Assembly: GCF_029714425.1 (NCBI RefSeq) | Contig: NZ_CP121668.1 | Span: 8,329,501 to 8,393,500 of the forward strand | Origin: Bradyrhizobium sp. CB2312 | GTDB taxonomy: Bacteria > Pseudomonadota > Alphaproteobacteria > Rhizobiales > Xanthobacteraceae | Length of the DNA stretch: 64,000 nucleotides | Reading direction: 5' to 3' | In this document: piece by piece, positions 9,142-57,733 of the stretch | Position numbering within the stretch: position 1 is the stretch's first letter | Layout of the letters: every line of letters starts with the position of its first letter | Translations under genes and position numbers: made by a program | Notes under the pieces: model-generated | Told to the model about the DNA's origin: nothing | Database searches by the model: none | The model's input: the letters and a program-made list of their open reading frames with translations, nothing else

Positions 9142-10746
9142 GAACACGCTGCCCCGGATTGCGCGCTTCAGCTATCCTTTTCCTCGCTGACGCGATCTTA
9201 TCGCTGAGGTCGCGTTCGCATCATCGGCGCCATGGCCAGCGATAGCAATTCTCATAGAACAACGCACCGCTCAAAAATGGTGAGAGCATTCTGGCCGACG
9301 TCCGCAAAATCTTCTCTATATTGCCCGCTGCAATAGTGAGCGCTGCTATCACCGTAGCGGTTGCGGCTTTGGCTGTCTCATTCAAGACGTCGTTTGTTTA
9401 AAAAACCGACAACAGCACCGCCGCCAACTACATGCTGCGGGCAACTGACATCGTTTCTTCATAAAAGCGCTCAAGCGGCATTGGCATGCCAGTTGCTTGA
9501 ATATGTGACGAACCACTTTTGACTATGATGCTCATTCGGCATTCGGTCGAGGTATTCAGATGAAACTTGCTTAATCGGTGGCAGAGGTCTCCTGATGCGC
9601 TTTCCAAACCGTGCGGCTAACTCTGCCATCTTCGGATCGCGCTCCGGTTTGCCGGGCCGGAATCCGATCGTCTTGTAAAGGACTCGCGACGAATGGCGGT
9701 CCTCAACAAGATGGCGTACACCAGGGTAAAGGCGTATACCAGCACGATTGTTTGCGTCACTTTTGGCCGGTGACCCAAGCGCGCGCATCTGCGAGATGCC
9801 GAGCCTGGGTTCGTAGAGCTGCGCGGGCGGCCTTCAATCAGTGCTTTGCAGATGGTCAATGAGCTGATGCAGGACGATTGGGATCTCGATAAAATAGTCA
9901 GGCAACAGGACGAGCTCAAGGTCAAGCTGCTTCGCGCCCAATCGGTTGTCGAGGAATGTAAGGCAGGATTGGCGGATCTGGAGCGGAGGCTTGAGCGTCG
10001 AGCGGTCTCATCATCGATCGATGAGCGCCAGCGCAACCCTGCGGCCAACAGTTCAATACGTAACGCCCGACCGCACAAATCCCGAAGCGTCGATGATTCT
10101 GTTGATCAGAATGCTGGTGTGGCCTTTTCGAGTCGATCATGGGACCGCTGAAAACTGCCGCCGCGCCCATAGCGGCGAAAGGTTTTGTCGCGGAGTTGGT
10201 GAAGATCTCGAGACGCATGGGGTTGCGAGCCCGGCGGGCGAACCGGACAACCGGGTGCGGCCCTGTCGATAGGGTAGGCTTTTTGGCTGATCGCGATGCG
10301 TTGGCCAGGGGATGCGCGCAGAGTAGCACCACATACGTGACGTATCGCCGCGTCTTTGGCTAGAGCCTCCTGTTCCGGGGGCTGTGCACGGAGATGTCCA
10401 GAGTCGAATGTCAAAGCTCGCCACCTTGAGCCAGTTGGGTCGCTTTGTCCGTCTTCAAAGCGTTCAAATTGCCGGTAGACGTGTCTCGAGAGGGGCGCGA
10501 GAGGGCGCGTTCACTGACACGCTGGTCCGCTATGACCGTGGAGCAAGGCATGCGATGACGGGCGGTGCTGACCGCGGAAGCCATGCCTCATCCGGCATCG
10601 CATGGAGGATGATGAGAACTGGCTGACTATGTCCGCAAACGATCCCAATGCACCGAAAGAGGGCAGGTAACGGCAGTCACCCAAGTTCTTGAAACGCCAG
10701 GAAGAGGTTTCCCAGGCGAATGCGATGTGGTGCTGTCCGCGGCCTC
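9142..10746. other. Long stretch without a confident gene
   Basis: This 1.6-kb stretch holds a sigma-54-type promoter sequence (9482-9497) and several short open frames. The best of these, 9846-10151 on the plus strand, encodes a 101-aa product with a coiled-coil-like half (IVRQQDELKVKLLRAQSVVE, then ECKAGLADLERRLERR). It could be a small gene or a remnant; I do not recognise it. Patches at 9170-9230, 9475-9530 and 10610-10690 match the spacer before the second tts-box locus (16880-17420), so at least part of this stretch belongs to a duplicated segment. Confidence 0.5.
9482..9497 (+). promoter_or_regulatory. Sigma-54 -24/-12 promoter sequence (TGGCATG-N4-TTGCT)
   Basis: TGGCATGCCAGTTGCT fits the RpoN consensus TGGCAYG-N4-TTGCW at every key base. 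A TGT-N11-ACA sequence at 9395-9411 sits where a NifA upstream site would be, but its spacing is one base too long for the TGT-N10-ACA rule. No intact gene follows: the next ATG opens only a short frame. It is read as a relic of a nif-type promoter in a duplicated segment. Activity is inference. Confidence 0.5.
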
Positions 10747-10774
10747 GTCAGCTTCTCGAAAGCTTCTCCGAATA
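10747..10774 (+). promoter_or_regulatory. tts box (TtsI-dependent type III regulon promoter)
   Basis: GTCAGCTTCTCGAAAGCT followed by TCTCCGAATA matches the rhizobial tts-box core (GTCAG-TT-TCG-AAGCT). It lies 64 bp before the start codon of the 82-aa gene at 10811. An almost identical box with the same spacing precedes the paralogous gene at 17550. TtsI, the response regulator that binds tts boxes, is not in this window. Confidence 0.85.
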
Positions 10775-16800: not shown

Positions 16801-17486
16801 TTTAGCCCTCCCCGGGGGCTGCGATGCCGTGCGTTGGCAGGTATCCATCTCATTTTACCGGCCGCTCAGATTGCACGCGCTTCAGCTATCGAGTCCGATG
16901 CGATCTGCTTGCTGCAATCGCGTTCACTTGATCTCGAACCGCGATGCCGTGCGCAAAATAGTGAGATTATGCTGACCTAAATCGGCAAAAGTCATCTTTT
17001 TCACTGAGTGCTGTCGTAGTGAGCGCTGTTGCGGACGTCGTGGCTGCGACTGTCGCTGTGTTGCTCAAAGGCATCGGTTGTTTCAAACGCAACAATAGGG
17101 CGCCAGCAACTAGGTGGCGCGGGAACGCCTAGGTGGTGTTCTCTACAGCTCAAGTGCATTGGCATGCCGGTTTCTTGAACCTGTGACGACACCACTTGTG
17201 ACCATGATGCTCATGCAGCATCCCAGCCGGGATATGGGACGAACGGCGCGGGCGTCATATCGTGACGCTCCACTACAGCCGCGGCGCTGGGCACGCGACG
17301 GCCGTGGCCGTCGTGGTTGCGGATAAATGGCCTGAACCGGAATCGCATGAATTATGACGAGAACTGGCTGGCTACGTCCCACACAATGTGGCTCGGAGGG
17401 AAGTCGGCAAACAGCAGTCACTTGGCCCGTGTGGCGTCAGACAGAGTATTCCCGGCGAATGTAAGTCCGGCGCCGACCGTAAACTC
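16801..17486. other. Spacer of the second duplicated segment
   Basis: No gene is supported. It holds a NifA-type upstream site and a mutated -24/-12 sequence (listed separately). Several patches match the spacer before the first tts box: the CGCGCTTCAGCTATC patch at about 16879, the TTGGCATGCC patch at 17159 and GAGAACTGGCTG at 17359. Confidence 0.5.
17079..17175 (+). promoter_or_regulatory. NifA upstream site plus mutated -24/-12 element
   Basis: TGT-N10-ACA (TGTTTCAAACGCAACA, 17079-17094) is a perfect NifA binding-site pattern. It lies 65 bp upstream of TGGCATGCCGGTTTCT (17160-17175), which keeps the -24 GG but has TC where the -12 GC should be. The homologous position in copy 1 (9482-9497) keeps the -12 but has a defective upstream site. 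Sigma-54 activity here is unlikely. Confidence 0.45.
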
Positions 17487-17514
17487 GTCAGCTTCTCGAA
17501 AGCTTGTCCGAATA
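17487..17514 (+). promoter_or_regulatory. tts box
   Basis: GTCAGCTTCTCGAAAGCT is identical in its first 18 bases to the box at 10747 and continues TGTCCGAATA. It lies 63 bp before the GTG start of the 82-aa gene at 17550. The GH28 gene starts 740 bp further on, with no obvious promoter of its own, so it may be co-transcribed. Confidence 0.85.
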
Positions 17515-31015: not shown

Positions 31016-31525
31016 GGCTTTATACTCGAGCCGCTGCTGAGTGGTTATGCGCGGAAACGCGTCAGTGGAAAATATCTTACGGTCGGGCATCGGCCAATCA
31101 AACTCCTGCACCCAAGGACATGCCAGATTCGTTGCCATCGAGGCCACTTACGGCGACAGTCTGTCAGCTTATCGAAAGCTAAGGTCCTAGAGCATTGTCC
31201 ACCGTGCTGGTAGTTGCCGTTGGTGGCGAGCCAAACGATCTGCGTGTTTTTGCGGCGGCACTCGTCAGCTGATCGACAGGTGGGCGTGCTAACGGCGGAG
31301 GGCTGCCACCGTCGACGCTTCTTCGGACTCATCTGGCCAACGAGATGGCAGGCTGCGGGCGCAGCATCGATCTATTGTCCAGGTTGGGCTCGTATCGGCC
31401 CGTGTCTAAGAGGTGCTGGACGGCAGTCGCGGGCCACGCGCACAGGCCTTCGAATGATCATTTGCTCTGCGGACCTAGCTGCTTCGCGGCATTGGGAAGC
31501 GGAGGTGTACTCGTTAGTTCTGACG
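31016..31525. other. Leader region of the NopM gene
   Basis: It contains the tts box (31163) and a second tts-like sequence (31265). The nopM frame is open back to 31214, but that part has no effector-like sequence and begins inside the promoter region, so it is treated as untranslated. Confidence 0.5.
31163..31180 (+). promoter_or_regulatory. tts box upstream of the NopM-like gene
   Basis: GTCAGCTTATCGAAAGCT matches the tts-box core at all conserved positions. It lies about 360 bp before the chosen nopM start, farther than the 63-65 bp seen at three other loci here. A second degenerate copy (GTCAGCTGATCGACAGGT, 31265-31282) is 102 bp downstream. Confidence 0.82.
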
Positions 31526-37086: not shown

Positions 37087-37130
37087 GCTAGGCTCACTCC
37101 AGGATCACCTGAACAGGTCTACCTAGTTCG

Positions 37131-37151
37131 GCAAGCTTTCGAGAACCTGAC
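37131..37151 (-). promoter_or_regulatory. tts box (minus strand) for the NopD-like gene
   Basis: Read on the minus strand: GTCAGGTTCTCGAAAGCT followed by TGC. It matches the tts core and lies 45-65 bp upstream of the GTG at 37086, the same distance as in the two 82-aa gene loci. Confidence 0.8.
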
Positions 37152-37393
37152 TTGGCTATGGTTCCGCGGCGAAGAGTTATTCGGGGTGGCCAACCTCGGA
37201 AATGACGGATCAGGCTCTCCTGAACAATCCGCCTCACTCTCCCTGGGATCCCACGACATCTTTCGTCCATACGCTCTTACAGTGGGGCACCCTTAGATCC
37301 CAACGGGCTCGTCTGGCGCCGGTCCCTCCAACAAGATCGCAAAGCTCAAGTCCCATGCGGCTCGAGAAGGCGGCAAAATGGCACTTGCGATGG

Positions 37394-40986: not shown

Positions 40987-42324
40987 TTAGTTAATAGGGA
41001 TGCGGTCGAGATAAGTGTCGAACGCGGCAGCAACAGCGCGAACGACAAACCGGTGCTCCTGCTTGACCCGAATAAATCCCTTTTCAATGTCTACTACCCC
41101 ATCTTCTGCAAGCATTCCCAGGCGGTCGGCCGAACCGAGAAGAGGAATCGGATCAAATCGGTGAGCAGCACAGATCGCTGGCACGTCGGCCTGCAAATCG
41201 CACATCAGACGCTCGATGATTGCGGCGCGGATGCGATCTTCGGTGGTGAGACAGTAGCCTTTTGAGGTTGCCAGGCGGCCGGCCTGAATGTGTTGGTGAT
41301 AGGAAGCGGTTGCGATCTCGTTCTGCACGTAACCGTCGCGCAGACGGCCGATGGCTGACGGACCCAAGCCGATTACGGTTTTGCAGGTATCAGCCGAATA
41401 GCCCAGAGAGTTGCGGCGCAGCCGACCAGCTTTCTGGGCCAGCGCGAGCTCGTCATTGGGCAGGGCGAAATGGTCGAGCCCGATCTGGCGGTAGCCGGCC
41501 GAGACCAGCGTATCTGCAATAGCCGCGGCTTGCTCAGCGCGGGCGACATTATCCGGCAGCGCCGTCTCATCGATCTGGCGCTGACGTTTCATATAGGAGG
41601 GGACGTGAGCATAGCCGAAAACCGCAAGCCGGTCTGGCCGCATGGCTAGAGCCGTCCGCGCGGAGTCAACGCAGGACCGCACCGTCTGATGCGGCAGTCC
41701 GAAGAGAAGGTCGAAATTGATGCGCCTTATCCCATGCTGGCGAAGCCTTTCGACGACAGAAGCCGTCTGTACCTCGCTCTGGACTCGGTTGACCGCTCTT
41801 TGGACTACGGGGTCGAAGCTTTGCACGCCTATGCTCGCGCGGTTGATCCCCGCCGCTTGTAACATTTCGACCATCTCGGCCGTGACCCCACGCGGATCGA
41901 TTTCTATGGCGATGGTAGCTGATTTACTGAACGCAAAGCAGCGGCGCAGGAGTTCCATCAAGGCGAGAAAATCGCTCGGTGCAATGGTGGTCGGCGTCCC
42001 GCCGCCGAAATGCACGTCGCGCACCGGCAGAGCGCGAGGCACTTGCTCTGCGACCAAGCGTATCTCGTCCCGCACTGCTGCCAAGTAATTGCGGACCGGT
42101 CGCTCACCGCGCGTGAGGCTTGTAGGAAAACCGCAATACCAACAGATAGAGCGACAGAACGGAACGTGGATGTAGAGCGATACGGGCTCGTCGGGAGGCA
42201 GCCGCCTCAGCCATGTCTCAGAAGTCTTGGCACCGACCATCGCGGAGAAATCCGGTACGGTTGGATAGATGGTGTACCAAGGCAGGCGAGCATCGCAATA
42301 CTTGTTTAGAAGGGAGGTCTGCAA
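40987..42324 (-). CDS. hemN: HemN-type coproporphyrinogen III dehydrogenase (hemN1-like)
   Basis: The product is 445 aa, the usual HemN length. It is a radical SAM enzyme: YIHVPFCRSICWYCGFPTSL carries the CxxxCxxC cluster ligands, HFGGGTPT is the SAM-binding GGGTP motif and the IEIDPR and NRASIGVQSFD blocks follow. It converts coproporphyrinogen III to protoporphyrinogen IX without oxygen, for heme synthesis in microaerobic nodules. Classical HemN has CxxxCxxCxC; here the last cysteine is phenylalanine. Bradyrhizobium has two hemN genes, and I recall that only hemN2 is needed. By position on the nod side of the island this is hemN1-like. A FixK-type box lies 58 bp upstream. Confidence 0.92.
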   Translation of the reverse strand: MQTSLLNKYCDARLPWYTIYPTVPDFSAMVGAKTSETWLRRLPPDEPVSLYIHVPFCRSICWYCGFPTSLTRGERPVRNYLAAVRDEIRLVAEQVPRALPVRDVHFGGGTPTTIAPSDFLALMELLRRCFAFSKSATIAIEIDPRGVTAEMVEMLQAAGINRASIGVQSFDPVVQRAVNRVQSEVQTASVVERLRQHGIRRINFDLLFGLPHQTVRSCVDSARTALAMRPDRLAVFGYAHVPSYMKRQRQIDETALPDNVARAEQAAAIADTLVSAGYRQIGLDHFALPNDELALAQKAGRLRRNSLGYSADTCKTVIGLGPSAIGRLRDGYVQNEIATASYHQHIQAGRLATSKGYCLTTEDRIRAAIIERLMCDLQADVPAICAAHRFDPIPLLGSADRLGMLAEDGVVDIEKGFIRVKQEHRFVVRAVAAAFDTYLDRIPIN

Positions 42325-42395: not shown

Positions 42396-43627
42396 ACGTA
42401 GTGGTTTCTGAGATCTGGTCCCGTTTTCGATGTTACTGCCAACGCGGCTTAGGGGGCAGAGCAAGGAGTGAGAGCCGCTCGTTGGCGATTATTTGGACGT
42501 TTAGGTATGAATTCTCTCGTCCGAGCACGGTTGAAGCGGCTAGAGAGCCGGCGCGAGCGATCAATCGCTCATCCGAGGGCACGCCGGTGCGCATCCGCTG
42601 ACGGCCCGTCATTTTTGCGACAACACAGGGACTTGTAGGTCTCACCAAGAGCAGCTCGGCTTCTCGATCTTCAAACCGGTTTTAAAGCAAAGCCGATTGG
42701 TTGCTCACAGAGTTCGACGGATGCCTCCGTCAAAGGCCGGCGTGACACAAAAGATAAGTTGCTTGCTAGATGAGAGCGCGAGGAGCGCAATAGCACAAAA
42801 CCTGACGCAACGTGCGATTCAAAGTCCTTTAGCGCGGCCGACGATAGCCATTCTTAATCTCTAGTATCGAACGCATAAGCCTCAATTCCGCCACGCTGGT
42901 TGTCTCATTGCCACAAGCATCATCACGGATGTACTGATGGTGTTGGGGCGACCCCAGCGCACTTTCAGCCCCCCGGCGAAGTGCGTCGGGGCGCCTTGGT
43001 TCGGCGGCATCGTCGCTGTCTAATGCAGCTCACCAACTCACAACGACTTTGGACGTCCGCTGATGGCAAGCGAATCCCGGCCAGATGCAATCGGACGAGA
43101 CACAATCTGCAATAGTTTCTATTCTGCTTCAAACTGGGTTGTTTTCTTTTTACATCGGCTTTGGAGCTATCGATCCCTGCCAGATCGCGCATATCTATTC
43201 CGTTAGCCTCCATTGGCGTCGTATCGATGCGATGCACCTGCAGCTCTCAGCTTCACATAGACCGCCTGGTCAGGTTTCGACCGACCCGTCACTGTGTTCT
43301 GATGCTGCGAGCTGGGGCTGCCATGCAGGAGCCGACTACGCTTCATACCGCTCGCGCGCCGTGCCGACATTGACCCTCCCGGCAACTGGAAAGCGCGAAC
43401 GGGATGTGACTAGGTACGGACCGCTCGGCTCATGACGATCAGCTGGGATGCACGAGGTGATCCGCCCCATCGCCGCTCGATCCGACAGCTTTTCGTCTTC
43501 GCGTTGGCGGCTTTCAGAGTTAGTCAAGGCACGCGGACAGACATAAGCTGCCGCCTTCATCATGTTGCACCCCGATCTCACCGTGCTGGATCTCCTGCCG
43601 ATCCACGAAAGATGGGAGTTGAGACTT
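42396..43627. other. Region upstream of hemN
   Basis: It contains a MerR-type operator/promoter (42792-42822) directed leftwards. A 71-codon minus-strand frame (42433-42648) downstream of it is a weak gene candidate. Nothing else is recognised. Confidence 0.4.
42792..42822 (-). promoter_or_regulatory. MerR-type (NolA-like) promoter with 19-bp spacer, upstream of hemN region
   Basis: On the minus strand TTGAAT, a 19-bp spacer containing GCGTCAGGTT and the hexamer TGTGCT form the layout used by MerR-family activators. The spacer is closely related to that of the nolA promoter at 55226-55256. It points towards hemN, 470 bp away, over a possible small frame at 42433-42648. Confidence 0.55.
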
Positions 43628-45584: not shown

Positions 45585-45689
45585 ACTAACCCTCGAGTTC
45601 AGCTCATGGACTGGAATTTGGCTCGGCCTGAAGCAAGCGCAATCGAACACGATGAAGGGGAGGTTGATCGTCGTACTGAAGCGTCCAGC

Positions 45690-46415
45690 ATGGACCTCTT
45701 TAGCTTCACCGAATGCGCTAACCAGACTCATTCACTCAGAGCACTATTCGAGCTTCTTGTAGGCTGTGCCACGAGGGAAGGCTTCAGTGAAGTTGCATAC
45801 GGCGCTCTCAACTTCGTTGAGCCACTTCGGCTGGCGGAGTATCCGCCCCCGACTGTGGCTGTGAAGTGGCCGCCAGACTGGTGCGACCGATACTTCAAGC
45901 GCAAGTACCATACTATCGATCCGGTGGTCCGGCGTACGCCGATGCTTTCGCGGCCGTTCTTGTGGGATCAACTCGCCGACGACTACCAGCTTCAACCGGA
46001 CGAAAGACGCGTACTTGACGAGGCGAGAGAGGCGGGGCTGAAGCATGGCATGAGCGTCCCGTTGTTTGGCCCGTTGGGTCGGATATCTGTGGTGTCGTTT
46101 GCATCTGCGTTCGATGATGCTGATCCTCAGGATCGCATCGGGCATCTCAACGCGCTGGCTTGGCAGTTTCACACCGCCTATGGCGACATCGCTCGTCCCT
46201 GCGATAATGGTTGCGACAGAAAAGTTGCACTGTCGCCGCGGGAGACCAGTTGCATGCGGTGGGTGGCAGAGGGGAAGTCGTCATGGGAAATTGGGAAGAT
46301 CCTGGGAATCAGTGTTAATACAGTCAACTTTCATGTCAAGAACGCAATGCGAAAGCTGGGGGCAGCCAGCCGGATTCAAGCGCTGGTTGTGGCGGTTCGC
46401 CTAAATGTTCTTTGA
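45690..46415 (+). CDS. LuxR-family regulator with autoinducer-binding-like domain
   Basis: The product is 241 aa from ATG 45690 (MDLFSFTECANQTHSLRALF); the frame allows a start at 45606 adding 28 unconserved residues. The N-terminal domain keeps positions of acyl-homoserine-lactone receptors (WCDRYFKRKYHTIDPVVRRT, PFLWDQL, GLKHGMSVPLFGP). The C-terminal GerE-type HTH is LSPRETSCMRWVAEGKSSWE, then IGKILGISVNTVNFHVKNAM. No luxI-type synthase lies in the window, so it is a candidate solo receptor. Targets and ligand are unknown. Confidence 0.88.
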   Translation: MDLFSFTECANQTHSLRALFELLVGCATREGFSEVAYGALNFVEPLRLAEYPPPTVAVKWPPDWCDRYFKRKYHTIDPVVRRTPMLSRPFLWDQLADDYQLQPDERRVLDEAREAGLKHGMSVPLFGPLGRISVVSFASAFDDADPQDRIGHLNALAWQFHTAYGDIARPCDNGCDRKVALSPRETSCMRWVAEGKSSWEIGKILGISVNTVNFHVKNAMRKLGAASRIQALVVAVRLNVL

Positions 46416-46712
46416 ATTTGAGAACGGGACACTAGCAGCCAAATCGTGGGCTTCCAGCTTCTGACATAGTGCATGGCACCTTCGGCGAGCTCGCCACACG
46501 CCTTAGAGCAAGTCCGTTATCTCACGCTGCGTGAGGTTGTGGGACTGTCACGAGAGCGATGAATTCTCGAATCGACTGACCTGTTCCTCCAGTGTGTTGG
46601 CGGCTTCTCGGCCACACTCCAACTGGCCTCTGGATTCCATTACTCAGACGAGCGCGCACCTGGTGCTTCGGAACTGATTGGGGCCGGCAGGGTGAGGAGC
46701 AGCTGAGGAAAG
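46416..46712. other. Intergenic region with a short dyad
   Basis: No gene is supported. A perfect 7-1-7 dyad CTCACGCTGCGTGAG at 46521-46535 is followed by GTTGTGGG. It resembles the right half of the NolA-type operators but lacks a matching -35. Confidence 0.4.
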
Positions 46713-47488: not shown

Positions 47489-48156
47489 TCGAGTGTCGTT
47501 TCCTTTCGGTGCCCCCCGGCGCCGTGCGTTTAACAATATGAACGCGAATTGCTGTAACTTCCGCACAACATGTCTTCGAAAGAAACGGGTCCAATCGTAC
47601 GCCGCGTCAGATTGTGGAGCGCGCAACTTGCCATGCACTGCCTCGACCGAAATGCTGGGGCCGGGACACTGGTCGCTTGGCGCAGATGATTCTTTGAATA
47701 CGATCCGTTCATGATGGCTGTGACGGGACGCAGTGCTACGAGCTGTTTGGCTCTCTCTTTCGCTGACTTGCGACAAAGCCAGGCTGCGCCAACACGTCCC
47801 GGGCATGCTCGTTCAGAGAGTTCGGCAAATGAAGACTGCTGATCCAGAACGCGTCTCTTGCGATCAGGCTCACTTCCCGGCAGGAGGATCGTGCTGCCGC
47901 TTGCAATCGTGAGTGATACGGCGATGATCGATCGCAGGCTTGGACCGCTCTGGCTCAGGACCTATCGCAAGTTTAGCACGATGTTCCTCAACCTCGACCT
48001 CGATCGACGGGTGTCAAGGAGCCGATGCGGCTGCTTGACGAGGCTCTTGCTTGAACTTGCGGGACCTCGTGCCGAGCCAAAACTCAGGAGAGGAAACGGT
48101 ATGGCTCTTCCTGGCGCCAGCGAATATTAGGGCGGCTGTCCCGGCTCGTCGCCGAC
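47489..48156. other. Intergenic region
   Basis: No gene is supported. Just before its end, AGGAGAGG precedes an ATG at 48102 opening only nine codons. Confidence 0.4.
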
Positions 48157-51577: not shown

Positions 51578-52609
51578 TTATCCGCCGAAGCTACCGAGAA
51601 TTTCAGTTTTAATTGCAGTTGCGGTGTACACGGAAATCTCCAGCGGTAGGTTTCCGAATGCAAGCTGGCAAAGCAAGTAGTTGGCACCCGCCACTTCCAT
51701 CTGCTGGAGAAGGACCTGTCGGACGGAAGCCGGCGTTCCAACGACGCACAATTCGTTCTCAAGTGCTGCATCGAAGGTCAGCGGAAGGGCGGGCGGTGTC
51801 GGAATGGCGTTAAGCTCGTAAAGAAACTTAAAGCTCTCCAGCCATCGGCGATACGCAGTTTCGGCCGCCGCATGAGCGTCCTGATCAGACTTCGCAATCA
51901 CGACCATGCGGGCCAGCCCGAGAAGTGGCTCGCGGCCGTGTGCGGCTGTGTTGTGGGGTCGATGGGAACGGTAGGCGTCCGTAACGTTCCGGACAGCGCA
52001 GGCGGGGCCTATGCACGCCAGATTGGCGCCATTTGCCGCGGCCCACTGCGCCGACTCTGCCCGATTGCTTGCGATCCAGATGGGCGGAGATGGACGTTGA
52101 TGGGACCTCAACGCCAAGGGTACGTCGCTCAACTCGAAGTGGTCTCCCTGATAAGATAGCGTGTGTCCCTTCAGCGCAATATTCAAGATTTCACTGGCTT
52201 CCGCATAACGACTTGGTGCAGCGTCTGCACTGATGCCGAAATAGCCCCATTCAATCGGCTGGGAACCGCGGCCTATCCCGACCTCGAGCCTGCCGCCGCT
52301 CAATTGGTCAAGCATGCAGATCTCTTCGAATGCGCGCAATGGATGATAAAGGTTGAGCAACAGTACGAGCGGACCGAGCCGTAATCGCCGGGTGCGCTGC
52401 GCGACACTTGATAGGAACAGGTGCGGCGAGGGCCCTCTGCCATGAGGTGTGCAGTGATGTTCGGCCAGGTGATAAGCGAAGAATCCGAGCGAGTCGCAGA
52501 CCTCGATCAGCTTGAGACGATCTTCATATTGTCGTGCGGCATCTTGGCCGTCGTCATCCAAATGGTCGAAAATGCCACACCTTAGTCTTGAAGAAAGGCC
52601 ACTCTTCAC
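51578..52609 (-). CDS. Luciferase-like flavin-dependent monooxygenase
   Basis: The product is 343 aa from a GTG at 52609. It is a TIM-barrel enzyme of the bacterial luciferase superfamily: LKLIEVCDSLGFFAYHLAEH contains the EHH motif, followed by LGPLVLLLNLYHPLRAFEEI, LDQLSGGRLEVGIGRG and PPIWIASNRAESAQWAAANG. Such enzymes use reduced FMN and oxygen on varied organic substrates. The substrate cannot be inferred. It lies ahead of nolA on the minus strand, next to a periplasmic binding protein gene, with 475 bp between them, so co-transcription is uncertain. Confidence 0.9.
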   Translation of the reverse strand: MKSGLSSRLRCGIFDHLDDDGQDAARQYEDRLKLIEVCDSLGFFAYHLAEHHCTPHGRGPSPHLFLSSVAQRTRRLRLGPLVLLLNLYHPLRAFEEICMLDQLSGGRLEVGIGRGSQPIEWGYFGISADAAPSRYAEASEILNIALKGHTLSYQGDHFELSDVPLALRSHQRPSPPIWIASNRAESAQWAAANGANLACIGPACAVRNVTDAYRSHRPHNTAAHGREPLLGLARMVVIAKSDQDAHAAAETAYRRWLESFKFLYELNAIPTPPALPLTFDAALENELCVVGTPASVRQVLLQQMEVAGANYLLCQLAFGNLPLEISVYTATAIKTEILGSFGG

Positions 52610-53084: not shown

Positions 53085-54194
53085 TCAGTTCTGCTCGACA
53101 GTTTCAACACGGCCCTCTCGCCAACGGTAAACCAGAAAGCCAGGAGCCGCATTGTCTCCCTTTCTATCGAACCGGACTGGGCCAATCACGGTATCGGTCG
53201 GCCGTGAACGAAGTGCGCTAGCTACGCGCGCAGCATTCAAAGAACCGGTCCGGTTCACCGCCTCTGCCCATGCTTGCACGGCCGCATAGGCGTAAAGCGT
53301 GTAGCCTTCAGCGGACAGGTTGGAAGCTTTGAGTGCGGCCACCACGCCGGCCGCATTGGCATTCCTGGCGGGGTCCGGCATGAAGGTAAACAACGTGCCA
53401 TTTCCGGCGCTGCCTGTAATGGCCCAGAATTCAGAGGTCATCAAAGGATCGTTCGCCATGACCATAAGTTCCGCTCTTGCTTCTGACGCCTGGCGTACAA
53501 ACAATCCGATTTCGGTATGATAACCGCCGATATAGGCGACACGCACCCGTTCCTTCTTCATCCTTGAGACCAGCGCTCTGTAATCCTTTTCACCGGCTAC
53601 ATAGCTTTGCCGAATGACTTGTTCACCGAATCTCCGAAGCTGTGCTTCAACGACGTCGGCGATACCCTTGCCTGCGGTGCTCTTGTCGTCGAGCACTGCG
53701 ATCTTGTGGTTAGGGAAGGTCCGGTGAATATACTCTGCGGCAACGATGCCCTGTTGGTCGTCGCGGCCGCAGATCCGAAAGACGGTGTCAAGGCCCCGTT
53801 CTGTTAGCTGAGGATTTGACGAGCCAGGTGACACCTGAATGATGCCTGCTTCGGCGTAGATCTCGGAGGCCGGGATCGACGCAGAAGAACAAAAATGGCC
53901 AACGACCAACCGGACCCGCTCTGTTGTGAGCTTATTCGCGACCGCGACAGCTTGCTTCGGGTCGCACGCGTCGTCGGCGACAGTCAATATCACCTTGGTA
54001 TCGAGAAGTAGACCAGAAGCGTTCAACGCCTCGACTGCCGCAGCTGCACCATCGCGCATTTGTGCGCCGAACGCAGCGCTGCTTCCGCTCATTGGGCCAG
54101 CCACGGCAATATTGACGTCGGAGCCGCGCGCAACAGAGGCGAGGGCGCAGAAGAGAAGCGCGACACTCGCAGCAGGCGCACAACGATTTAACAT
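53085..54194 (-). CDS. Branched-chain amino-acid-type ABC transporter substrate-binding protein (LivK-like)
   Basis: The product is 369 aa from ATG 54194, with a signal peptide (AASVALLFCALASVARGSD). It has the type I periplasmic-binding fold: VNIAVAGPMSGSSAAFGAQM, GAAAAVEALNASGLLL, VADDACDPKQAVAVANKLTT, VVGHFCSSASIPASEIYAEA and KIAVLDDKSTAGKGIADVVE. It would bind an amino acid or amide in the periplasm. No permease or ATPase genes are adjacent, so it is an orphan. A NolA-like MerR-type promoter lies about 120 bp upstream (54317-54347). Confidence 0.92.
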   Translation of the reverse strand: MLNRCAPAASVALLFCALASVARGSDVNIAVAGPMSGSSAAFGAQMRDGAAAAVEALNASGLLLDTKVILTVADDACDPKQAVAVANKLTTERVRLVVGHFCSSASIPASEIYAEAGIIQVSPGSSNPQLTERGLDTVFRICGRDDQQGIVAAEYIHRTFPNHKIAVLDDKSTAGKGIADVVEAQLRRFGEQVIRQSYVAGEKDYRALVSRMKKERVRVAYIGGYHTEIGLFVRQASEARAELMVMANDPLMTSEFWAITGSAGNGTLFTFMPDPARNANAAGVVAALKASNLSAEGYTLYAYAAVQAWAEAVNRTGSLNAARVASALRSRPTDTVIGPVRFDRKGDNAAPGFLVYRWREGRVETVEQN

Positions 54195-54316
54195 TGTAAA
54201 GCTCCCAATGTTCACCTGAAGTCTAACCGCCGGCAGCTGTGATCAGACGTGTCTACACGTTGAGATTGTCTGTCAAAGCGAAGCTTGCGTTGGTCGCCAG
54301 ATTGCGACCACGGTAG

Positions 54317-54347
54317 AACTTACAATTTGACGTTAGGTGCGTTTCAA
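54317..54347 (-). promoter_or_regulatory. MerR-type (NolA-like) promoter with 19-bp spacer, upstream of the LivK-like gene
   Basis: On the minus strand TTGAAA and TAAGTT are separated by exactly 19 bp, and the spacer (CGCACCTAACGTCAAATTG) matches the nolA promoter spacer at most dyad positions. Transcription would start near 54310, giving a leader of about 115 nt to the LivK-like gene. Confidence 0.6.
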
Positions 54348-54497
54348 GGCCGTTTTTTTTGAGCCACGACGGTGCATCAGGGAGCGCGGATTGACGGGGT
54401 CACGACGACTGTCCGGTTTAGTCCATAAAACTGTTGGCCCGCATCAGAGCCGACGAGCGCCTATCGGCAATGCCGTGCGGAGCCGGCCAGGAGGACG

Positions 54498-55220
54498 TCA
54501 GTACGGCTGATCCTCCAACCCGCCAAGGGCCAAATCGAGATATTGCATGAGGCAGGGATCCCAACCAGCCAGACTACGGGGGGCGCTTAATCGTGCAAGT
54601 ACCTTCAGGATCATCGAAACGCGTGAATCGGCGCCAGCGATTTCGCCGATCAGCAAGCGTGCTGCAACTGCGACAGCCTTTGCCCGCTCGCCGCAAGGAT
54701 GCTCGCCTCGATCCATACAATCACGCAGGTCGTCGCGGATCCGCCGCCACCGCTCCTCGCGATCTGCAGCTAACTTGCAGGTGCATCGGGACGTCTGATT
54801 ATGCGTCTCGACCCGCGACATGGCATTGAGGGTGGCAGGCAGCTCATCCACACTTACCTGGATATCACTGTCGATGGTCATGTTGCGCAAGCGATCTCGC
54901 AGCAGAGTTGCTCGAGCGACTTGAAGTTCTATCCGTTCTAAATGTTTGCGCAGAAGATCGGTAAGTGAGGTCGTGCCCTCCATAGCTTTACGGATCTCGA
55001 CAAGGGAGAAGCCAAGCTCACGTAGCGCTCGAATTTGGTGAACCCGTTGCACACTTTCGCGGTCGTACATCCGGTGGCCGCCGTCAGTACGCTCTGAAGC
55101 TGCTAGGAGCCCGGTGTGTTCATAATGATGCAGCGTGCGTACCGTTACTCCGGTCGCCTCTGCAAGTTCGCCAATGCGCCATCGACGCCTTCGTGGTGTA
55201 GCTTTGCTCATGTTGTTCAT
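54498..55220 (-). CDS. nolA: NolA, MerR-family nodulation regulator
   Basis: The product is 240 aa. The N-terminal MerR HTH is WRIGELAEATGVTVRTLHHY, then HTGLLAASERTDGGHRMYDR and the coiled-coil linker LRELGFSLVEIRKAMEG. The C-terminal part is a TipAS-like effector domain. In B. japonicum, NolA governs host-genotype-specific nodulation and, with NodD2, represses nod genes at high cell density. Three polypeptides from alternative in-frame starts are reported there; here internal methionines are at 51, 80, 114 and 134. The start at 55220 is only 5 bp from a putative -10 (55226-55231), so the first form may be translated from a leaderless or nearly leaderless mRNA, or begin at the second ATG (55211). 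Confidence 0.95.
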   Translation of the reverse strand: MNNMSKATPRRRRWRIGELAEATGVTVRTLHHYEHTGLLAASERTDGGHRMYDRESVQRVHQIRALRELGFSLVEIRKAMEGTTSLTDLLRKHLERIELQVARATLLRDRLRNMTIDSDIQVSVDELPATLNAMSRVETHNQTSRCTCKLAADREERWRRIRDDLRDCMDRGEHPCGERAKAVAVAARLLIGEIAGADSRVSMILKVLARLSAPRSLAGWDPCLMQYLDLALGGLEDQPY

Positions 55221-55225
55221 TTCAA

Positions 55226-55256
55226 AGCCTACAACCTGACGTCACGTGTGATTCAA
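55226..55256 (-). promoter_or_regulatory. MerR-type (NolA) autoregulatory promoter with 19-bp spacer
   Basis: On the minus strand TTGAAT (55256-55251) and TAGGCT (55231-55226) are separated by 19 bp. The spacer CACACGTGACGTCAGGTTG contains an imperfect dyad (AATCACACGT / ACGTCAGGTT) centred between the boxes. This is the hallmark of promoters distorted by MerR-family activators. Position directly before nolA indicates autoregulation. Confidence 0.72.
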
Positions 55257-55332
55257 GCTATTTCAAAGCTCTAGCTGGATCGTCTTCCATTCCAGCGACG
55301 AGACTGGTGACTATCCTCAGAATGGCGTGGGA

Positions 55333-55563
55333 TCAACCCTGAGGGGAAATGGTGATCAACAAGTTCGTCAGGCATGCCAGTTGAGCCTCGCCAGCCGCTG
55401 TACGCTCCAGGATGAGTTTGGCGATTGCTGTGCGATTTTCCGGACTTCGCATCGATGGGGGTAGCGCGGCGATCGCACTATCATAAAGGCGTCCCAGGGC
55501 GGAAAGCTCTTCCGGATCGAATACGCCGCTGCATTGCTCCAAGTTCAGCTCCTTGTTTGTCAT
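55333..55563 (-). CDS. Small hypothetical protein, paralogue of the 49261 gene
   Basis: The product is 76 aa from ATG 55563 (MTNKELNLEQCSGVFDPEEL). The frame is open to 56052, but only the last part has a relative: GVFDPEELSALGRLYDSAIA, ALPPSMRSPENRTAIAKLIL matches the C-terminus of the protein encoded at 49261-49638. The longer frame could also be a fusion. No ribosome site is obvious. Function unknown. Confidence 0.6.
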   Translation of the reverse strand: MTNKELNLEQCSGVFDPEELSALGRLYDSAIAALPPSMRSPENRTAIAKLILERTAAGEAQLACLTNLLITISPQG

Positions 55564-56109
55564 TGCGTCATGGCAGCGCACGTCGTCAAGACGTTTGGCT
55601 GCGATAGGGCCAAAAGAAGTCAGACCCGCGGCGCGGAGCGACGAAGATGCGATGTACTCCCATGTGATGCGACAGGGCAACATGCCTGCGCGAGGCTTGC
55701 CTCGACGCCGCAAGAGATCGTGGTCATGTGCATGATCGATGACCATCACGCGCACGGTGCGTGATGGTACGGCTTCCGAAGAAGCACAAGCGTCTCCGCT
55801 CTTCGGGAGCCACTGCTGATTCGGAGAGTTGACGAGGGCAGCCCAGCGCCGCTTCTGCTGTATCGACAGCAGGTGCGCCAGGCGGCCGGGTGCAACGTAC
55901 GCCCCTATCTTTAAAACCAGGCCAACACTGACCCGCCGCTCGCACGTCGAGCCTATTGCCAACGTGCGGAAGACGTACACATCGTCGTCATGATAGCCGT
56001 CTGTTGCGATGATCTTTATAGAGCGACCATGAATTCGAGCGAGGCGAGCCAAACTGTATGCGTTGAGACATTCGTTGGGATATGAGGCTCGCAGATCCTG
56101 CGAACGTCC
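55564..56109. other. Region between the small gene and nodD2
   Basis: It holds the upstream extension of the previous frame (to 56052), which contains no known domain. Nothing else is seen. Confidence 0.4.
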
Positions 56110-57102
56110 TTACGACAACGGCGAGGCAGATCGTGCGAAATCCCCGGCAGAATGAGCTCGTTCCGAAGTGCAGATCATGGAGGCTTCTTGCCCAGTTGCC
56201 ATGCGGGTAGCTTCCTGCAACAATATCTCTCGCATCCACAGGCTTTCCGGGTCGCTATTGTGAAGGACGGGCCATTGAACCGCCTCAGTGAAGGCGGGAA
56301 ATGGCTGCGGGAGCTCCGCAATGCGAAGGGGCATTGTTCTTTGGAAATGCTTTACGAGCCCTAATGGCATCGTCCCTATGCGGTTGGTGCCCACCAGCAG
56401 GGGCGGGATCATGCTGAAGCTCTGCACGAGAATGTCGATGCGCCGATTGAGACCTAAATCGAGTAAAAGGGATTCTTCGACCGGCGTCTGGCGCGCGCCT
56501 TTGACCTTAACCGCAACGTGGCCCATCGACATATACCGATCAAATGTAAGCCCCCGTAGTAGTTGGCTGTTCGTGGAGCAGCCTACGCAGACGAGTCTCT
56601 CCTCGAATAGGGGCGCCCTGGGGTGCGCGCCGGACATGAATAATTCCGGCAAGATAACAAAATCGACTTCGCCGCGGCGGAGAAGCTCATCGTGCTCATC
56701 GGTGAGCGCGACCAGTTCGAAGCTGACGGCCGGTGCTTCTCGCGCGACGCGCTCCACGACATTTCGGAAGAATACGACTGTTATAAAATCAGAAAGGCCG
56801 ATCCTGAATCGCCGGTTCGATCGAGCTGGATCGAACATGTCCCGCGCGATAATTGAAAGATCGATGTGCGTTAGAGCCTCGCGTACAGGGGCTGCGAGTC
56901 CTTCCGCGCGTGAGGTCGGGACAAGTTCCCGCCCCCTCATCCCAAACAGCTCGTCACGGAAGTAGGATCGCAGCCGGGCAACGGCTGCGCTCATGGCCGG
57001 TTGACTAAGATTAATCTTGCGGGCCGCTGCGCTGAGGTTGCGCTCGGTCATTAGAGCATCCAGCGCGACGAGAAGATTTAGATCCAGACCTTTGAAACGC
57101 AT
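56110..57102 (-). CDS. nodD2: NodD2, LysR-family nodulation regulator
   Basis: The product is 330 aa. The LysR HTH at residues 20-45 reads [20 protein letters not shown]. The effector domain (residues 90-300) is collinear with NodD1 downstream: [40 protein letters not shown]. In Bradyrhizobium NodD2 represses nod genes and its expression depends on NolA. A NolA-like promoter lies about 350 bp upstream (57450-57480). The last 20 residues ([20 protein letters not shown]) extend beyond NodD1. Compared with NodD1, an alanine is inserted or displaced in [13 protein letters not shown]. Confidence 0.95.
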
Positions 57103-57733
57103 GTCTTCTTATCCGGCACGAACGTAATTGGGCGCATACACCAAGCGATGACGGCTGCGTCTGGAGAGGTCCTTGGCTCGCACGAACGGACATCGTTTCC
57201 ATCCTACGACCGCGAAAAAGACGCTCGTGCAATGATCGCAACAATGGAGAGCAAGGCGGTAGGCCGGCCAGCAGCGGCCGGAAGCCGTCAGGAGTCCCAA
57301 AGGTGATCGGTGTCGCCGGTTCCGGCGACCCACGCGACAGGACCCGGCCGGTTGGTTAATGGCAGATCAACCCAATGTCCGGCCAGTGCCGTGAGTTCGC
57401 CAAAGCGTCCAGTCGAGAGCCGCCTAGCGCAGCTTTCATCACGGCGGTCAACCTACAACCTGACGCAGTGTGTGGTTCAAGCGATTTTATGCGACAGGCC
57501 AAACATTATTGCACTGGAGGAGGCGTGTTGTGCCGCGATAGTGCCGGGCGTCGCCTGTTTGCGGTGCAAGCGCCTCATCTGCGAGGTCACCACGCTCGAC
57601 TCGGCAAGTCTTCGCAGCCGATCGCCCGTCGCTGGCAGCTTGGCCTCAGAGACGTTGAAGTGACGAAAGCGGCCGAGTAGGTCGAAGGATTGTTAGCGTA
57701 TTTGGAACATGCCGAGAGTGGCTTACGGTGAGC
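57103..57733. other. nodD2 upstream region / nodD1-nodD2 spacer
   Basis: No gene is supported. It contains the putative NolA-type promoter reading towards nodD2. Confidence 0.5.
57450..57480 (-). promoter_or_regulatory. MerR-type (NolA-like) promoter with 19-bp spacer, upstream of nodD2
   Basis: On the minus strand TTGAAC (57480-57475) and TAGGTT (57455-57450) are separated by 19 bp. The spacer CACACACTGCGTCAGGTTG differs from the nolA spacer at only four positions. It is directed towards nodD2, 348 bp away, with no gene between. It offers a direct mechanism for the known NolA dependence of nodD2. Confidence 0.7.

Follow-up and report, generated by a model that had tools for sequence, protein, structure and literature searches.

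Which DNA sequence does NolA, the MerR-family regulator encoded close to nodD2, recognise, and which genes stand behind it? The question is raised by a stretch of 64,000 nucleotides (nt) of the Bradyrhizobium sp. CB2312 chromosome (NZ_CP121668.1, positions 8,329,501 to 8,393,500; hereafter the window, at its full length), which belongs to the symbiosis-gene region of a 9.78 Mb genome assembled in one contig. The model of how nodD2 is controlled relies on a putative NolA site upstream of that gene, and according to the available part of the same source a screening in 2017 found none (PMC5596368). Our literature search returned no published NolA operator, box or regulon sequence, an earlier description in the original NolA papers being possible, while a term search of the accessible text of a genome-wide start-site paper gave nolA in reference entries only and nodD2 nowhere (PMC4842269). 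A first-pass annotation of the window had proposed that a set of MerR-type promoters, nodD2 included, is under direct NolA control; such a set is supported here and proves larger than thought, with 13 sites in this genome, and the 31-base-pair (bp) element that defines it is, judged by its sequence, very likely the operator-promoter of NolA as a MerR regulator of the TipA class. The sites and genes on which the argument turns are the following.

55226-55256, minus strand: predicted NolA-type operator/promoter of nolA, TTGAAT / 19 / TAGGCT, 43.8 bits.
57450-57480, minus strand: predicted NolA-type operator/promoter of nodD2, TTGAAC / 19 / TAGGTT, 40.4 bits.
54317-54347, minus strand: predicted NolA-type operator/promoter of the LivK-like gene, TTGAAA / 19 / TAAGTT, 34.9 bits.
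42792-42822, minus strand: hemN site, TTGAAT / 19 / TGTGCT, 39.0 bits (a member of the matrix training set).
54498-55220, minus strand: nolA, MerR-family regulator of 240 amino acids.
56110-57102, minus strand: nodD2, LysR-type regulator of 330 amino acids, named by gene order and by similarity to the neighbouring nodD1.
53085-54215, minus strand: LivK-like substrate-binding protein (Peripla_BP_6; NF011933 below its cut-off).
51578-52609, minus strand: LLM-type oxidoreductase, orthologue of X268_RS37710 (58.5% identity over 340 amino acids).
40987-42324, minus strand: hemN-like oxygen-independent coproporphyrinogen oxidase (TIGR00538 above its cut-off).

The gene order behind the naming of nodD2 agrees with the description available in PMC5596368. 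Each of the four minus-strand sites that had been claimed was found at exactly these coordinates, and all share TTGAA and a 19-bp spacer. The TAGGYT-like -10 box that had been ascribed to the whole set holds for nolA and nodD2 and fails at LivK (TAAGTT) and hemN (TGTGCT, a weak box), a TA-type -10 being present in the first three; likewise, LivK (CGTCAAATTG) and hemN (CGTCAGGTTT) depart from the common spacer ending. Over the 31 bp, the nolA and nodD2 sites are for the most part near-identical, and those of LivK and hemN are looser. The nolA site ends 5 nt ahead of the first nolA ATG, so that a leaderless or nearly leaderless transcript would be predicted from the sequence. It fits exactly the nolA promoter TTGAAT-N16-TTGTAGGCT given in the accessible part of PMC5596368, where it was read as an ordinary sigma-70 promoter.

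Promoters controlled by MerR proteins typically have a spacer of 19-20 bp with the operator inside it, as the consulted part of PMC9909328 states, and the element described here shows this separation of the boxes, an inverted repeat within the spacer and a position ahead of the regulator gene. When gaps giving spacers of 16 to 23 were allowed, the spacer was 19 in 227/227 half-site pairs from 67 nolA loci (orthologous sites counted repeatedly), as it is in all 13 sites of this genome. Among 199 distinct sites of at least 29 bits, complementarity peaked at a dyad centred on site position 14 (mean 0.63, against 0.42 for the next best centre and a median of 0.27), with an imperfect half-site of about AAYCNSACGY; in one genome outside the genus (G622), both 10-bp arms are perfect, AACCTCACGT-G-ACGTGAGGTT. 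The partial dyad and the 19-bp spacer, read by the first-pass annotation as the signature of a MerR-type promoter, are thus borne out by the geometry. The known MerR-type promoters merT, copA, bmr and mta resemble NolA-type sites in the 19-bp spacer, the dyad inside it and autoregulation. At copA and merT the dyad centre is likewise shifted by about 2 bp towards the -35 box. The NolA-type sites differ in the marked asymmetry of the dyad, in a poor, TAGGCT-like -10 and in their apparent number of 6-28 per genome, whereas MerR sensors of metals or drugs usually have one or two targets.

A strict pattern (at most three mismatches) matched the window twice, at nolA and nodD2, versus 0.01 matches expected in shuffled windows, and it misses the LivK and hemN sites. 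Over the whole 9.78 Mb genome at the same tolerance, the first pattern gave nine matches and a refined one 13, and the reversed pattern gave none in either form. All 13 lie between 8,033,790 and 8,696,459, that is, within 0.66 Mb, and the chance of such clustering under random placement is of the order of 1e-14. On the main matrix, whose training set included six of them, these 13 sites score 29.4-43.8 bits; the best 31-mer in 20 Mb of random sequence with the dinucleotide composition of the window reached 22.05 bits.

Conservation was followed in 67 Bradyrhizobium loci obtained by a NolA search. The nolA site stands directly upstream of nolA in 67/67, and its columns carry on average 1.81 bits, compared with 0.79 upstream and 1.12 in a downstream flank that is partly coding (58 distinct full-length rows). 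A matrix built from 18 distinct nolA sites alone returned 208 matches of at least 20 bits in these loci, 67 of them the nolA sites, while five column-permuted versions returned none; the second-best match of this matrix marked the nodD2 place in 45 loci and the LivK place in 14, with another position in the remaining eight. With the combined matrix, 65/67 loci showed a site of at least 15 bits at the nodD2 place, which begins to be counted 1.6 kb and ends 3.4 kb upstream from the site of nolA itself (L075 and L076 have none there), and a nodD-type gene follows 155-364 nt (median 341) behind it in 55/67. A LivK site was present in 63/67. The nodD2-place site averages 1.60 bits per column versus 0.43 and 0.36 in its flanks and the LivK site 1.57 versus 0.34 and 0.29, site values that are somewhat raised because these rows were picked by best score in a stretch. 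Conservation at the orthologous nolA and nodD2 promoters, which the first-pass annotation had named as support for its reading, therefore holds, and a matrix trained on nolA finds the nodD2 and LivK sites in other species. The extension of the regulon is likely for LivK and less so for hemN, for which a site was seen in G000, G001, G003 and G008 at least.

In ten loci (L054-L059, L061, L062, L066 and L067), the search behind the nodD2-place site revealed no nodD gene, and the site is also weaker there, with a mean of 26.3 against 35.9 bits on the nolA-only matrix (Mann-Whitney P 1e-4, uncorrected for kinship, the ten being probably one lineage, so that the test overstates independence). A weaker site where the nodD gene is missing is as expected of a nodD2 promoter. 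Some of the ten have a broken TTGAA, and together they form a natural record of promoter decay. In three other loci (L064, L068 and L069), the nolA site is preceded at a distance of about 550 bp by another strong NolA-type site, which scores 45-52 bits on the nolA matrix.

Expression evidence comes from a nolA deletion in B. guangxiense CCBAU53363, for which the accessible part of the study reports 11 genes changed by RNA sequencing (RNA-seq), 10 of them down, and names nopP, virK, X268_RS37710 (LLM oxidoreductase) and X268_RS35990 (transposase) (PMC9927474). These four of the 11 were compared with the sites, the direction of change being stated, as far as that text goes, for neither X268_RS37710 nor X268_RS35990. 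On the symbiotic plasmid p53363 (NZ_CP022220.1), the pair X268_RS37715-X268_RS37710, in which the LLM gene begins 37 bp behind a histidinol-phosphate transaminase gene (HisC), is preceded at a distance of 314 nt by a 32.1-bit site (678893-678923). The B. guangxiense genome has only six sites at up to three mismatches, its nolA site scoring 31.3 bits, and a chance match to a named locus is therefore unlikely. In the window the LLM gene follows the LivK-like gene and is hence downstream of the 54317 site. Gene order in the 67 loci, some of which end early, was site-LivK-LLM in 23, site-LivK-HisC-LLM in 20 and site-HisC-LLM in eight, so that an LLM gene follows the site in 51/67; the remainder comprised site-LivK only (10), the site alone (2) and no site (4). 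The orthologous LLM gene and the shared order mark the LivK site as corresponding to the one ahead of the nolA-responsive pair, and LivK and LLM, about 475 bp apart in the window, would share one transcript. Another strong site on the plasmid, at 647985, precedes a transposase gene that was briefly considered as the one in the RNA-seq list; this was dropped since the tags differ (X268_RS37600 versus X268_RS35990). A further plasmid site, at 700351 on the minus strand, is followed by a small open frame. Of the three named loci, one is thus explained directly, nopP is negative for both site and gel shift, and the virK-transposase locus is unexplained.

Co-occurrence bears on which regulator reads the sites. 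Within the genus, the refined pattern (at most two mismatches) was found in 140/265 genomes and never in reversed form. A close NolA (E 1e-40 or better) was encoded in 129, all of which have sites, with 6 to 28 pattern matches each; no genome had such a NolA without a site, 11 had a site without such a NolA and 125 had neither. In eight of the 11 a looser search revealed a more distant NolA, again with a site immediately ahead of its gene, which leaves three exceptions (G037, G079 and G133). The search was carried beyond the genus in 377 genomes of the order, 363 of them from outside Bradyrhizobium. Two of the 363 matched at up to two mismatches: G445 with two, which by its sequence looks like a chance match, and G622 with one. 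G622 is also the sole one of the 363 with a NolA homologue at E 1e-18 (its own value is 2e-64, with 53% identity). The gene for this homologue has the perfect-dyad site 31 nt ahead of it, and further homologues were not found in the genus (14 genomes) or family (20 genomes) of G622. The gene after the G622 homologue appears by eye to encode an alpha/beta hydrolase-like protein. The assignment to NolA thus relies on the site upstream of every nolA examined, on the co-occurrence, on G622 and on the B. guangxiense RNA-seq.

A number of observations weigh against that assignment or against parts of it. NodA occurs in 139/140 site-bearing genomes and in none of the site-free ones; it tracks the sites equally well, and genus co-occurrence alone therefore does not single out NolA. 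The looser NolA search covered the 11 site-bearing exceptions and not the 125 site-free genomes. G037 and G133 have NodA and one site each (at most two mismatches) without a close NolA, and G079 has six sites with neither NodA nor a close NolA, its best MerR protein (E 5e-14) having no site upstream; G079 also contains one reversed-pattern match at three mismatches. In B. guangxiense, nopP and virK lack a site, the best sequence in about 600 nt upstream scoring about -11 bits, and the stretch 290000-339900, which holds nopP, virK and, placed next to virK by tag order, X268_RS35990, has no match above 13.3 bits; the negative gel shift with GST-NolA at nopP in the part of the study available (PMC9927474) agrees, for its part, with the missing site there. 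NolA effects at responsive loci without sites are accordingly, in some cases, indirect or exerted via another element. The nodD2-place site is kept, though weaker, in the ten loci without a nodD gene behind it. Distances to the start codons used are long at nodD2 (about 350 nt) and hemN (about 470 nt), the hemN -10 is poor, and a microarray study shows hemN1 rising together with nolA in USDA 110 (1.8 and 1.7) and not falling with it in SFJ4-24, according to its accessible text (PMC4070659). Finally, sites from this analysis served to refine the patterns and the main matrix, and the scores of these same sites are therefore in part circular; the genome scan with the first pattern and the scan with the matrix from nolA sites alone are less so. 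The six G079 sites are on contigs C23 and C72 (L081, L092, L102 and L207-L209), and that genome perhaps represents a decayed island or a diverged regulator.

Several of these points would also fit an assignment of the sites to some other island-borne regulator, whether a MerR protein or a special sigma factor, with NolA merely one of its targets: the linkage of NodA and NolA within the genus is almost perfect, three genomes have sites and no recognisable NolA, and two nolA-responsive loci of B. guangxiense are without sites. We nevertheless regard it as unlikely. G622 has one site and one NolA homologue, and the two are adjacent; together with the B. guangxiense LLM gene, a nolA-deletion-responsive gene behind a site, this is evidence free of the confounding by NodA. 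The geometry and the dyad are those of a MerR-type promoter, and the CB2312 genome encodes a single further NolA-like protein within E 1e-5, at 6e-6.

It is less probable still that the sites are tts boxes, the targets of the type III secretion regulator TtsI. Both kinds of element occur in the same region and have GTCAG-TT-T in common, the right half of the NolA-type site, CGTCAGGTTGTAGG, resembling the B. japonicum tts consensus tcGTCAGcTtntcGacAGctagnccnnntA given in the available part of PMC3009519. The likeness goes no further: 136 occurrences of NolA-type sites score no higher than 32 of 45 on the tts consensus, with a median of 24, and background sequence attains such scores as well (2882 matches of at least 27 in the 67 loci and the window). 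A tts box has nothing that corresponds to the left half TTGAAYC-ACG or to the dyad. Conversely, the top tts-like boxes in the window reach 35-43 against the tts consensus, and the NolA matrix gives them -4 to -26 bits; one box in L074 has 39 and 10.3 bits. Regulation of ttsI by NolA was not seen in CCBAU53363, as far as the accessible text reports (PMC9927474). A tts identity was rejected, as the sites do not match the consensus and the scores of the best boxes separate. The tts-box-like sequences of the window, at 35-43 of 45, are located at 10745-10774, 17485-17514, 31161-31190 and 31262-31291 on the plus strand and at 37124-37153 on the minus strand. That the sites are functionless relics of duplicated upstream regions, a local duplication being easy among genes as close as nolA, nodD2 and LivK, is hardly credible and was rejected, as mean identity among the 13 sites is 73% while their flanks agree only at random level (26-28%, at most 43%), and as the nodD2 and LivK sites are kept in 65 and 63 of the 67 loci despite diverged flanks, the nodD2-place site being weaker where nodD2 was lost.

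NolA as the reader of these sites is in keeping with the protein itself, which has the N-terminal winged helix-turn-helix and the coiled coil of the MerR family. Members of the TipA class (TipAL/TipAS, Mta and SkgA) are among its closest solved relatives by sequence and by predicted fold (2vz4, 1r8d and 7cla), the fold alignment testing mainly residues 10-133, and the predicted C-terminal domain resembles the drug-binding domain of AlbA. In an alignment of 41 proteins, chosen from 120 listed of 474 matches with the NolA of the window and of G622 added, 24 matched TipAS at E 0.01 and NolA itself did not. On these models NolA has the look of a TipA-class regulator; the matches listed also include homologues from myxobacteria. 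The tipA gene yields two proteins from two start codons (PMC7762955, in the part consulted) and nolA reportedly three from in-frame ATGs (PMC5596368, likewise). NolA would differ from the class in its likely targets, genes of the symbiosis island, and in that the literature examined names no antibiotic ligand for it.

The features assembled above suggest how such a promoter might work. A NolA dimer would bind the imperfect dyad that lies within the 19 bp separating TTGAA from TANNNT. As for other MerR proteins, the over-long spacer would keep the two boxes out of register for the sigma-70 RNA polymerase, and activated NolA would kink the DNA and so align them. In this manner NolA would switch on nolA, nodD2, the LivK-(HisC)-LLM locus, probably hemN and about nine further symbiosis-island promoters. 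Direct binding, the distortion of the DNA, ligand activation by way of the helical C-terminal domain, the transcription starts and the direction of regulation are all putative parts of this scheme. On the sequence evidence, nodD2 and LivK-LLM are likely direct targets, and hemN is a candidate to which we incline with some reserve.

The wider set of candidate targets was surveyed in 80 further site regions from ten genomes, among the matches listed and including three from G079 and one from G114, with one representative per gene type compared with Pfam and some with NCBIfam. Behind the sites stood small secreted proteins with paired cysteines (13 sites, no family), OmpR-type response regulators (11), TrpD-like proteins (8), AMP-binding acyl-CoA synthetases (7), a long repeat protein (6, no family), a class-V aminotransferase fused to a Cys/Met-metabolism domain (5), biotin carboxylase (5), hemN (4) and a nuclease followed by another gene (4). 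The gene after the nuclease is presumably carbonic-anhydrase-like, and the aminotransferase fusion we take to be of the rtxA type of rhizobitoxine synthesis. Many distal sites are separated by several hundred bases from the next recognised gene, and their targets are less certain. In the CB2312 genome, the site at C1:8033790-8033820 (L005) lies about 560 nt upstream of an open frame of that aminotransferase type and has an ATG 6 nt behind it, compared with 5 nt at nolA.

Many distal sites are followed, 29-60 nt downstream and at a nearly fixed distance, by a second element of about AATTGCGAATGTCTCAAA, which precedes unlike genes (L207, L144, L158, L162, L133, L201, L136, L149, L146, L208 and others). 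Among 104 distinct sites for which 100 nt or more of upstream sequence was available, it was present at 13/18 letters or better downstream of 29 and upstream of none, counts that are partly circular, the consensus being self-derived and some sites orthologous. It was not found at the four sites of the window and appears now and then elsewhere in nolA loci. An Rfam scan of 20 site-bearing loci gave two matches, both below gathering scores. From its sequence and position, the element is possibly a leader RNA or a second binding site.

Two further dyad matches in the window, absent from the first-pass list, complete the picture of the locus.

47590-47620, plus strand: weaker dyad match without a good -35/-10, 31.8 bits.
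46515-46545, plus strand: weakest dyad match, without TTGAA, 22.1 bits, equal to the level of the best random 31-mer.

The first lies about 100 nt upstream of a gene for an outer-membrane-type protein (putative start 47488, minus strand), in opposite orientation to it, and in 39/67 nolA loci at least one match of 14 bits or more occurs on the corresponding strand, anywhere in the 3 kb downstream of nolA. A LuxR-family regulator is encoded near nolA (45606-46412) and resembles autoinducer-binding members, below cut-offs. NolA and NodD2 have been tied to quorum regulation in the available part of PMC5596368.

Taken as a whole, the evidence inclines us, with moderate confidence, to a reading of NolA as a sensor of the TipA class that symbiosis has recruited. 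Gated by a ligand, this MerR switch would directly command some 6-28 island promoters in nearly all nodulating Bradyrhizobium, among them those of its own gene, nodD2, LivK-HisC-LLM, hemN, rtxA-like, trpD-like and biotin-carboxylase-like genes, a response regulator and small secreted cysteine-pair proteins, with a subset of transcripts carrying the second element about 55 nt downstream of the promoter. The 31-bp site offers a precise, testable sequence for the long-missing NolA operator. If USDA 110 shares the site with its 19-bp spacer, this would account for the failure to see an ordinary sigma-70 promoter at its nodD2. If the reading is true, NolA would move from a regulator of two known genes to the likely head of a genus-wide symbiosis regulon.

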